47,801 nt of DNA, from the NCBI GenBank assembly GCA_028871525.1, contig JAGWMX010000008.1:1-47801 (forward strand). The letters are read 5' to 3'. This document shows positions 9,263-12,627 of the stretch, piece by piece (within the stretch, counting starts at the first letter, position 1; the number at the start of each line of letters is the position of its first letter). Both the position numbers and the translations under genes were made by a program. The DNA comes from Gammaproteobacteria bacterium (GTDB lineage: Bacteria; Pseudomonadota; Gammaproteobacteria; Nevskiales; Nevskiaceae). The notes beneath the pieces were generated by a model. The model saw only the letters and a program-made list of their open reading frames with translations, was not told the origin of the DNA and did no database searches.

Positions 9263-10336
9263 ATGGACAATGCGCCCAAACAATTGCATCGACTCGGCCA
9301 GAGTCTGTGGCTCGACAACATCACCCGGGCAATGCTGCGCTCCGGCACGTTGACCGAATACCGGGATAACTATGCGGTCAGCGGGCTGACCTCGAATCCG
9401 ACCATCTTCGACCGCGCGATCGAGTCCAGCGACGATTACGATGCCGCCATCCGTGCCGCCGGGCGGGTCGAACCCGAAGCGGTGTTCTTCGATCTGGCGA
9501 TCGCCGATCTGCGCAAGGCCGCGGAGGTGTTCGCACCGGTGCATGCGCGCAGCGGCGGTGTCGACGGCTACGTTTCCCTCGAGGTCTCGCCGCTGCTGGC
9601 TGACGATACCCCCGCGACCATCGAGCAGGCCTGCACGCTGCACCAGCGTGCGGATCTCCCCAACCTGTTCATCAAGGTGCCAGGCACTGTCGCTGGTGTA
9701 CCGGCGATTGAGGAGTTGATCTATCGCGGCGTGCCGATCAACGTGACCCTGCTGTTTTCCCCGCAACAGTATCGCGCCGCCGCCGACGCGTACCTGCGCG
9801 GCCTGGAACGGCGCCAAGCTGAGGGTTTGAGCTTGGATGTGGCCTCGGTGGCCTCGCTGTTCGTCAGCCGCTGGGACGCCAAGGTCGCCGATGAAGTACC
9901 GAAAGCATTGCGCAACCGCCTCGGCCTGGCGGTGTCCGGCTGCGTCTACGCCGACTATCGCAAGCTGCTCAACTCACCGCGCATGCAGCGGCTGATGAAT
10001 GCCGGCGCGCGGCCGCAGCGGCTGCTGTGGGCCAGCACCGGCACCAAGGATCCCGATGCCAGCGACGTGCTCTACGTCGATAATCTGGCCGCGCCGCTGA
10101 CCGTCAACACCATGCCGGACAAGACCCTCAAGGCGTTTGCCGATCACGGCCGCTGCGACACACCGCTGGCGGCCGACGGGGGCGATGCCGAACGACAGCT
10201 GGTGCGCTTCGCCGAGCTTGGGTTCAGGGTCGATCCGCTGGCCGAGACGCTGCAGCAGGAAGGCAAGGAATCGTTCGCCAGCTCCTGGCGCGACCTGCTG
10301 TCGACGATCCGCGAGCGCATGGCACAAGCCGCGTGA
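9263..10336 (+). CDS. tal: Transaldolase
   Basis: Transaldolase transfers a dihydroxyacetone unit between sugar phosphates, linking the pentose phosphate pathway to glycolysis. The 357-residue protein matches the longer (mycobacterial/cyanobacterial type) family: [11 protein letters not shown] near the N-terminus, [20 protein letters not shown], the Schiff-base region NLFIKVPGT with its Lys, PINVTLLFS and [10 protein letters not shown]. The frame is open upstream to 9140, but GGAG at 9251-9254 precedes the ATG at 9263 and the family starts there. It is the first gene of the operon; its TGA overlaps the GTG of the fused isomerase/kinase. Confidence 0.93.
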
Positions 10337-12627
10337 GCGCGCTACGGGAGCGCAAGACCTGGCAGGCGCTGGAGGCGCATCACAAGACGCTTTCCAAACG
10401 CCATCTGCGTGAACTGTTCGATGCCGATCCGGCGCGGGCGTCGCGTTACACGGTGGAGGCCGCCGGCTGGCGGCTGGACTACTCCAAGCACCGGATCGAC
10501 GAGCAGACGCTGAAAAAACTGTTCGCGCTGGCCCGCGACTGCGGGCTGGAGTTACGCCGCGACGCCATGTTCGCCGGCGAGAAAGTCAACGCCACCGAGC
10601 GCCGCGCCGCCTTGCACACGGCGCTGCGAGCGCCGGCCGACAGCGTGATTCTGACCGATGGCGTCAACGTCGTGCCCGAGGTGCAGGCGGTGCTGTCGCG
10701 GATGGGCGGGTTCGCCGAGGCAGTGCGCGAAGGTCGCTGGAAGGGCTGCAGCGGCCGGCCGATCCGCAACATCGTCAACATCGGCATCGGCGGTTCCGAT
10801 CTCGGCCCGGTGATGGCGCACGAGGCGCTGCGGCATTACTGCGATCCGCGGCTGCGGATGCGTTTCGTATCCAATGTCGACCGCACGGATTTTGCCGAAG
10901 CCACGCGGGATCTGCGGCCGCAGGAAACACTGTTCATCGTCGCATCCAAAACCTTCACCACGGTGGAGACGATGACCAATGCGCACAGCGCGCGGCAGTG
11001 GCTGCTGGACGACGCCGGCGATGAGAAGGCCGTGGCCCGTCACTTTGCCGCGGTGTCGACCAACCTCGAGGCTACCGGCGAATTCGGCATTCCACCCGAG
11101 CAGACGTTCGGCTTCTGGGACTGGGTCGGCGGCCGCTACTCGATGGACTCGGCGATCGGACTGTCGACGATGATCGCCATCGGAGATTCCGCGTTCCGCG
11201 AGATGCTGGCCGGCTTCCGCGCGATGGACCGGCACTTCCGTGAGGCGCCGCTGGAACGCAACCTGCCCGCGATCATGGGCCTGCTCAACGTCTGGTACAC
11301 CAACTTCTTCGGCAGCGAGACCGTCGCCGTGCTGCCTTACGCACAGTACCTGAAGCGCTTCCCGGCCTACCTGCAGCAGTTGGCGATGGAGTCCAACGGC
11401 AAGCATGTGACGCAGGACGGTAAGCCGGTCGACTACGCCACCGGGCCGATCTTCTGGGGCGAGCCGGGCACCAACGGCCAGCATTCGTTCTACCAGCTGA
11501 TCCACCAGGGCACGCGGCTGATTCCCTGCGACTTCATCGCCTTCGGCGAGCCGCTCAATCCGGGCGGCAAGCACCACGACCTGCTGCTGGCTAACGTCAT
11601 CGCCCAGGCCGAGGCGCTGGCCTTTGGGCGTAGCTTGCAGCAGATCGAGGCCGAGGGTGTGGCGGCGAAGCTGGCGCCACACAAGGTCTGCGAGGGCAAC
11701 CGCCCTTCCAGCCTGCTGCTCGCCAAACGGCTGACGCCGGCGGCGCTGGGCAGTCTGGTCGCACTCTACGAGCACAGCGTCTTCACCCAGGCCGCCATCT
11801 GGGATATCGACCCCTTCGATCAGTGGGGTGTGGAGCTGGGCAAGCAGCTGGCGCAGCGCGTGGCCGAAGAGATCGTCTCGGCGAAAAAGCCGCTCACGCA
11901 CGATGCCTCGACCAATGCCGCCATCGCCTGGGCGCGCCAGGCACGGCGTGCGCCGCCGGCCAAGACCCCGGCCGGCCGCCGTACGCTGGCAGTGGATGTC
12001 GGCGGCAGCCACGTCAAGGCCATGGTATCCGGCAAGGAACAGGAACGCCGAATCGATTCCGGTCCCGACATGACGCCGCAGAAGATGATGACGCAGATGC
12101 GCAGGAAACTACGCGGCTGGCAGTACGACCGGGTGAGCATCGGCATTCCGGCGCCAGTGGTGCAAGGGCGCGTGCTGCACGACCCGCACAACCTCGGCGG
12201 TGGCTGGGCGGGGTTCGACTTCCAGGCCGCGTTCGGCTGCCCGGTACGCATGCTCAACGACGCCGCGATGCAGGCGCTGGGCAGCTACGAAGGCGGCCGC
12301 ATGCTGTTCCTCGGCCTCGGCACCGGCCTGGGTTCGACGATGATCGTCGACGGCGTCATCGAGGCAATGGAGATCGCCCACCTGCCGTACCGCAAAAAGA
12401 CCTACGAGTACTACGTCAGCGACGCCTACCGCGCCAAGCACAACAGCAAGTGGCGCGACAACGTGTTCGAGATCATCGAGGTGCTGCGTGCGGCGCTGGT
12501 GCCGGATTACGTGGTGCTCGGCGGCGGCAACGTCGAGCATCTGGACAAACTTCCCGACGGCGTGCGTCGCGGCGACAACCGCATGGCGTTCACCGGCGGC
12601 TTTCGCCTATGGCAGGAGATGGCATGA
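10333..12627 (+). CDS. pgi: Fusion of glucose-6-phosphate isomerase and a ROK-type (polyphosphate-glucokinase-like) glucokinase
   Basis: One uninterrupted 764-codon frame encodes two enzymes. Residues 1 to about 535 are a complete phosphoglucose isomerase: [10 protein letters not shown] at 150-159, [32 protein letters not shown] and the catalytic-Lys end [12 protein letters not shown] basic Ala/Pro/Arg linker leads to residues 550-764, a ROK domain of the PpgK type: [12 protein letters not shown] (phosphate loop at 553-563), [10 protein letters not shown] with the presumed catalytic base Asp643, [27 protein letters not shown] and [10 protein letters not shown]. The usual ROK zinc motif is absent, as in polyphosphate glucokinases. 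The predicted product would both phosphorylate glucose and interconvert glucose-6-P and fructose-6-P. The phosphoryl donor (ATP or polyphosphate) cannot be read from sequence. GTG start overlaps the tal stop; its own TGA overlaps the gnd ATG. Confidence 0.9.

Follow-up and report, generated by a model that had tools for sequence, protein, structure and literature searches.

Two described families offer parallels to the fusion reported here. In the bifunctional transaldolase/glucose-6-phosphate isomerase (NF007080), Pgi is likewise fused to an enzyme of the pentose phosphate pathway, and the bifunctional transcriptional regulator/glucokinase (NF010701) is likewise a natural fusion with a glucokinase, although the Glk concerned belongs to another family and its partner is a regulator. 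The gene that we analysed lies at positions 10333-12627 on the forward strand of the window, by which we mean the whole 47,801-nucleotide stretch of contig JAGWMX010000008.1 (assembly GCA_028871525.1, a gammaproteobacterium of the Nevskiaceae), and it joins Pgi to a C-terminal kinase domain of the ROK fold. It differs from the first family in that transaldolase (Tal) is here a separate gene and the partner of Pgi is a C-terminal kinase, and the protein scores 60.4 bits against the NF007080 cut-off of 712; NF010701 is matched only by the separate Glk of the same genome, and then below cut-off (254 versus 920 bits). The first-pass annotation of this DNA had named Tal and Pgi, not Pgi and a glucokinase, as partners in known fusions of this pathway, and no natural fusion of Pgi with a glucokinase is evident from searches of the open-licence papers of PMC, by which measure the gene is apparently undescribed. 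It would be one of the bifunctional enzymes of central sugar metabolism, and it is a natural fusion, conserved, that stands where sugar metabolism first branches.

The gene is a single open frame with a GTG start and 764 codons, encoding 764 amino acids. Pfam PGI (PF00342) matches residues 49-531 with 684.5 bits (cut-off 22) over the whole of its profile (positions 1-486 of 486), and the N-terminal part scores 816.9 bits against the cut-off of 492 for the NCBIfam glucose-6-phosphate isomerase family NF001211. The Pfam ROK family matches residues 552-675 with 30.1 bits, above the curated cut-off of 22.9. The claim in the annotation that one frame of 764 codons joins a complete Pgi to a kinase is therefore borne out by these two Pfam matches. 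The parts of the gene are as follows.

10333-11925, forward strand: Pgi domain, residues 1-531 (PF00342, NF001211)
11926-11979, forward strand: linker of 18 residues, without an in-frame start codon
11980-12624, forward strand: compact ROK-fold kinase domain of the 3lm2 family, residues 550-764 (phmmer, model and structure match)

No stop codon or frameshift interrupts the frame at the join, and this includes residues 535 to 550, where the annotation had suggested that one be sought. The same fusion is present on 35 other contigs, and because homologous joins are in frame on all of these, a sequencing error, frameshift or assembly artefact is excluded. We confirm that the gene is a genuine, conserved fusion of Pgi and kinase domains. 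Over 28 fused loci (L051 and L146 lie on one contig) the linker is 15-25 residues long and varies in sequence. An in-frame ATG, GTG or TTG near the join is missing in 11 of them, the window included, which rules out a free kinase made from an internal start as a general feature; the other 17 have a GTG, a TTG or (in L047) an ATG there, and an internal start for a free kinase is possible in those cases. The structure model of the full-length protein was poor, with a mean predicted local distance difference test score (pLDDT) of 64.7, a predicted template modelling score (pTM) of 0.49 and residues 327-432 below 50, and we therefore infer nothing from it about the arrangement of the domains; a Foldseek search with this model gave only Pgi structures among the 50 matches listed.

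To find relatives, genomes of GTDB were scanned with an alignment of the kinase and the best 80 loci were kept, so that counts drawn from these are lower bounds. Taking together the best 80, the window and 20 further loci, Pgi is fused in frame upstream of the kinase in 18 of 101, Gnd lies in frame downstream in two, and neither is fused in the remaining 81. Fused genes occur on at least 36 distinct contigs including that of the window: 17 others came from the first set of loci, nine more from an extra set of 14 loci (12 of them fused) and a further nine from an extra set of 11 (10 fused). Each contig was counted once (L139 and L146 fall on the contig of L051, L147 on that of L047, and L165, identical to L048 over 2139 bases, on that of L048), and L156, a 99.6% near-copy of L048 on a separate contig, was counted. 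The named carriers, Fulvimonas, Rhodanobacter, Dyella and Oleiagrimonas, are all Rhodanobacteraceae, and the metagenome-assembled genomes (MAGs) that carry the fusion are labelled Natronospirales, Lysobacterales, Gammaproteobacteria, Proteobacteria and Nitrosomonas. Six loci considered as further fusions (L082, L085, L094, L098, L109 and L115) were rejected, as their upstream open frames of 144-348 codons have coding scores that are mostly negative or near zero, by a codon-based measure for which genes of the window served as training set. A 1073-codon open frame in genome G550 was set aside likewise: its upstream part has a negative coding score and is occupied by separate genes.

Genomes were also sampled by taxon. 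In the order of the window, a relative of the kinase (E 1e-20) was found in seven of 85 genomes, two of them with the fusion and both of the window's own genus. The phylum sample contained a relative in 15 of 398 genomes and the fusion in the window's genome only, and the class sample a relative in eight of 369, fused in the window's genome and G672, unfused in G748 and encoded by open frames of 230-262 codons in the remaining five. The family of Fulvimonas (G482) was richer, with relatives in 31 of 147 genomes. All 26 of those at 58-73% identity are fused (the Pgi part of G610 is cut by a contig end), and five have relatives at 39-43%, of which the one checked, G550, is unfused. Pgi was searched for in 13 fusion-bearing genomes: in 11, the window's included, none was found besides the fusion, and G484 and G492 each have one additional, separate Pgi; three genomes without the fusion have one separate Pgi each. 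Two observations concern individual loci. A second kinase copy at L022 (G284:C158:6205-6843) contains an in-frame TAG and is likely to be a pseudogene, and the labels of three Thermoplasmata MAGs (L069, L085, L109) and a Nitrosomonas MAG (L073) that hold kinase relatives or the fusion fit their neighbours in the tree poorly, for which transfer and mis-binned contigs are candidate explanations.

A tree built from Pgi domains places the 23 fused rows together in a single clade, apart from 16 unfused rows (support 100/99.9), with the caution that some unfused rows (L118, L152, L090) have long branches. This single clade makes it likely that the fusion arose once. The 18 fused rows of the kinase-domain tree do not form one clade (three changes), and a single clade is not rejected by the approximately unbiased test (p 0.264). 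The nearest unfused Pgi in the tree is that of L148, where the gene order is rok-pgi-gnd-zwf. The fusion protein of the window is 74-76% identical to its counterparts in Fulvimonas and Rhodanobacter, versus 67% to that of G037, a genome of the same genus, and the other proteins of its gene cluster are also closer to Fulvimonas and Rhodanobacter than to G037. PriA, encoded 2.4 kb downstream of pgl, the last gene of that cluster, is in turn closest to the window's own family (57% to G037, 56% to G024 and G013) and does not exceed 51% in any other fused lineage searched. This combination suggests that the whole cluster was acquired horizontally. The same affinities, in a draft genome of 146 contigs, could be taken as a sign of a mis-binned contig; PriA, itself encoded on this contig, places it with the genome's own family, and together with the 35 further fused contigs leaves a negligible chance that either mis-binning or a frameshift or assembly artefact accounts for the gene.

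Both halves look functional from their conserved residues. In Pgi, R268, E353, H384 and K504, which we take to be the catalytic Arg, Glu, His and Lys, are invariant in all 16 fused proteins aligned. The annotation had correctly located a Pgi motif at 150-159 (GIGGSDLGP is at 151-159) and had misplaced the catalytic lysine near residue 530; by analogy with animal Pgi this is presumably K504, within DQWGVELGK. In the kinase, D555, K562, N642, D643, T664, E680, H683 and W707 do not vary across 50 aligned sequences including that of the window. The phosphate loop that had been proposed for residues 553-563 corresponds to DVGGSHVK at 555-562, and the Asp643 singled out there is among these invariant positions. 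E692 is invariant in the 44 close-family kinases of this alignment and is N or D in the six distant ones. For seven chosen close pairs the ratio of nonsynonymous to synonymous substitution rates (dN/dS) is 0.05-0.17 in Pgi and 0.08-0.34 in the kinase. Comparing the window with 14 others by the Nei-Gojobori method (NG86) gave higher values where they could be computed, up to 0.31 for Pgi and 0.61 for the kinase; because these pairs are GC-rich and old, and the one with L073 gave no value, we put weight on the seven close pairs. Purifying selection seems to act on both domains.

By its sequence and predicted structure, the kinase is a member of a compact ROK family of its own, typified by 3lm2. 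The kinase domain was modelled separately (pLDDT 94.6, pTM 0.89) and structural comparisons are based on this model and not on that of the full-length protein. Its best match by VIA-align is 3lm2 (Z 34.2, root-mean-square deviation (rmsd) 1.0, 57% identity over 215 residues), which phmmer also retrieves with the kinase domain (3lm2_A, 1.9e-79). This 'putative kinase' of Agrobacterium tumefaciens C58 shares the compact family over the whole domain; it differs in being a stand-alone protein, and its entry title gives no function. The next match, the polyphosphate (polyP)/ATP-glucomannokinase 1woq, is more distant (Z 23.6, rmsd 2.5 over 214 residues, 21% identity), and other ROK kinases follow from Z 21.8 downwards; taken together, many ROK kinases match at Z 20-24. 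With 1woq the fused kinase shares the fold and an aligned catalytic Asp, phosphate-1 Lys and Glu/His pair (we assume the role of this pair), whereas 1woq is unfused and PpgK proteins have 253-267 residues against 215 here. The cut-off of the PpgK equivalog NF045942 is 250 bits, versus 57.4 for the fused kinase and 52-63 for four unfused kinases of the close family. Of the annotation's reading, the Pgi-kinase fusion is supported, and the nearest characterised structural relative of the kinase is a polyP/ATP-glucomannokinase; the family name 'PpgK-type' is not supported.

The compact family is widespread. Its rows in the tree bear the labels Pseudomonadota, Acidobacteriota, Planctomycetota, Verrucomicrobiota, Bacteroidota, Nitrospirota and others, many of them being MAGs, and it occurs in 52 plasmid records, mostly from Pantoea, Rhizobium, Shinella and Agrobacterium; among the ten of these records listed, nine carry the annotation 'ROK family protein'. 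Searches of open-licence PMC papers turned up no member with a tested function. We also observed a distant lineage of kinases at about 35-43% identity (L025-L028, L039-L042 and L163), which stands nearer to PpgK by profile score, the five scanned reaching 97-133 bits. Its genes adjoin zwf, pgl, gnd or gh15 in several loci, and that of L039 adjoins genes for ribulose-phosphate epimerase and ribose-phosphate isomerase.

The fusion gene of the window belongs to a tight operon with the order tal-[pgi::rok]-gnd-zwf-gh15-pgl, and a trehalase gene upstream faces away from it. It overlaps both of its neighbours by four bases, and gh15 and pgl likewise reach four bases into their predecessors. The neighbouring genes are listed below.

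7374-8996, reverse strand: GH37 trehalase, divergent neighbour (PF01204, 510.5 bits)
9263-10336, forward strand: transaldolase, tal (PF00923, 244.6 bits); GTGA overlap with the fusion gene at 10333-10336
12624-13688, forward strand: short 6-phosphogluconate dehydrogenase, gnd (PF03446, 126.4 bits; PF00393, 79.1 bits); ATGA overlap with the fusion gene at 12624-12627
13694-15139, forward strand: glucose-6-phosphate dehydrogenase, zwf (PF02781, 356.6 bits; PF00479, 160.4 bits); five bases after gnd
15136-17484, forward strand: GH15/glucodextranase-like hydrolase, gh15 (PF09137, 269 bits; PF00723, 83.5 bits); GTGA overlap with zwf
17481-18242, forward strand: 6-phosphogluconolactonase, pgl (PF01182, 248.4 bits, a family that also takes in glucosamine-6-phosphate isomerases); ATGA overlap with gh15; same cluster position in relatives

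Similar neighbours accompany the fusion elsewhere. On the 36 fused contigs, where contig or fetch ends truncate some of the stretches, gnd was located downstream in 32 and zwf in 28, and tal upstream in 26. Unfused kinases keep the same company. The best 80 include 62 unfused loci, and the stretches fetched around 46 of these encode one or more of the six cluster enzymes (two or more in 40 cases), with gnd in 38, zwf in 36, gh15 in 21, tal in 18, pgi in 14 and pgl in eight. Neighbouring gnd or zwf is thus commoner than pgi. Sixteen of the 62 have no cluster enzyme, six of these on stretches shorter than 12 kb. In two loci, L055 (5998-7713) and L084 (871-2583), an in-frame fusion joins the compact kinase itself to the N-terminus of Gnd; the hosts are a proteobacterial MAG (UBA1844) and a Polyangia MAG. 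Here the same kinase family is joined to another pentose-phosphate enzyme, the difference being that the kinase is N-terminal and its partner Gnd. The kinase product is not a substrate of Gnd, and these proteins therefore favour co-localisation over direct hand-off.

Glucose is the likely substrate of the kinase since its neighbours are glucose-6-phosphate enzymes, and on balance we think that the fusion encodes a bifunctional enzyme supplying glucose 6-phosphate (G6P) to the oxidative pentose phosphate pathway. The N-terminal half would interconvert fructose 6-phosphate (F6P) and G6P, and the C-terminal compact kinase would phosphorylate glucose, released by the neighbouring trehalase or the GH15 hydrolase or taken up, to G6P. 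Both halves would feed one pool of G6P, which Zwf, Pgl and Gnd of the operon would oxidise to yield NADPH and pentose phosphates, and transaldolase would return carbon as F6P to the Pgi half. The fusion would then fix the stoichiometry and co-localisation of two suppliers of G6P. The substrate, the phosphoryl donor, the direction of flux and any kinetic benefit are what we infer from this arrangement of genes.

Several results weigh against this reading. Four of the 36 fused contigs (L058, L155, L159 and L173) show no other cluster gene on the stretch, and the operon is therefore not obligatory. A phosphofructokinase (PFK)-family gene (PF00365) is present in 12 of the 13 fusion-bearing genomes, which makes the glycolytic direction possible and counts against a strict form of the proposal, in which a missing phosphofructokinase would force Pgi from F6P to G6P. 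A Glk-family gene was found in 11 of the 13 (not in G037 and G485), so that the fused kinase is usually not the sole candidate glucokinase. The Glk of the window's genome scores above cut-off (255 versus 225 bits) and the fusion would there be a second route; this Glk lies in a second sugar cluster, L151 (G000:C46:8000-26000), with zwf, an RpiR-type regulator, a TonB receptor, a GH37 trehalase and a sugar transporter. G037 and the window's genome each have another ROK gene, for which fructokinase is the best family, below cut-off. The dN/dS of the kinase in pairs with the window, 0.14-0.61, also counts on this side. A serial glycolytic enzyme, the reading put forward in the annotation, in which the C-terminal half makes G6P and hands it to the Pgi half to give F6P for glycolysis, would accommodate the PFK genes and the four contigs lacking pentose-phosphate neighbours, and the two reactions are indeed consecutive in glycolysis; moreover, some unfused relatives have the kinase directly upstream of pgi (tal-ROK-pgi). 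We nevertheless consider this enzyme unlikely, given that the neighbours are mostly oxidative pentose-phosphate genes, that the same kinase is joined to Gnd in two loci and that the linker is short, with a sequence that varies. As the unfused kin lie mostly by gnd or zwf and the kinase-Gnd fusions exist, we favour a co-localised supply of G6P to the oxidative branch over a serial enzyme or channel from glucose to F6P.

That the C-terminal half uses a sugar other than glucose, or has turned into a sugar-sensing regulatory domain of Pgi, is about equally improbable in our view. In favour of this, no tested function of the family was found in open-licence papers, 3lm2 is deposited simply as a putative kinase, and ROK folds include repressors; against it, the presumed catalytic and phosphate-loop residues are invariant and the family lies mostly beside glucose-6-phosphate enzymes, as at the 46 unfused loci mentioned above. 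The donor is a separate matter that fits either direction of flux. A strict or main use of polyP, raised as a possible donor in the annotation, by which stored phosphate would be spent on glucose, is in our estimate doubtful, if less so than the alternatives just discussed. It has in its favour that the nearest characterised structure, 1woq, is a polyP/ATP-glucomannokinase and that the phosphate-1 Lys of that enzyme aligns with K562, kept in all 50 aligned sequences. PMC4252912 links this lysine to phosphate binding. PPK1 is encoded in 11 of the 13 fused genomes, the window's own included, and PPK2 in five. The ROK motif CXCGXXGCXE, described in PMC6406325, is absent from residues 550-764, which contain a single Cys, and according to the same paper is also missing from the polyP glucokinases of methanotrophs, which are annotated as ROK proteins. 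On the other side stand the low score against the PpgK cut-off and the presence of the phosphate-1 Lys in 2gup too, so that this residue is not specific. Neither PPK1 nor PPK2 was found in two of the 13 genomes, G037 (94% complete), where no Glk was found either, and G490 (1.5 Mb). An enzyme strictly dependent on polyP would be difficult to square with G037, unless genes were missed there.

The fusion was possibly overlooked because its kinase third scores weakly in profile libraries. It provides a functional hypothesis for a compact kinase family that spans several phyla, and with it a single purified protein would be enough to test whether enzymes co-localise around the pentose phosphate pathway; were polyP the donor, the enzyme would be useful for ATP-free biocatalysis. 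A bolder proposal, to which we give little credence for now, is that a family of compact glucokinases, donor-saving and possibly polyP-using, has been joined to pentose-phosphate enzymes on at least two occasions, with Pgi as the partner in Rhodanobacteraceae and their relatives and Gnd in other bacteria. Kinase, Pgi, Zwf and Gnd would then be revealed as one physical assembly by which stored trehalose or glucan is converted to NADPH.

Elsewhere in the window, positions 23081-30697 encode a histidine kinase and response regulator beside an outer-membrane efflux protein, a HlyD-type adaptor and an AcrB-type RND pump, and two coding-like frames (31138-32166 and 32952-34184) have no Pfam match at E 0.001. 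An M16 peptidase gene at 43740-46511 has a relative near position 1857 of L023, the stretch of G037 that carries the fusion (64% over 622 residues), which is possibly a case of loose synteny.

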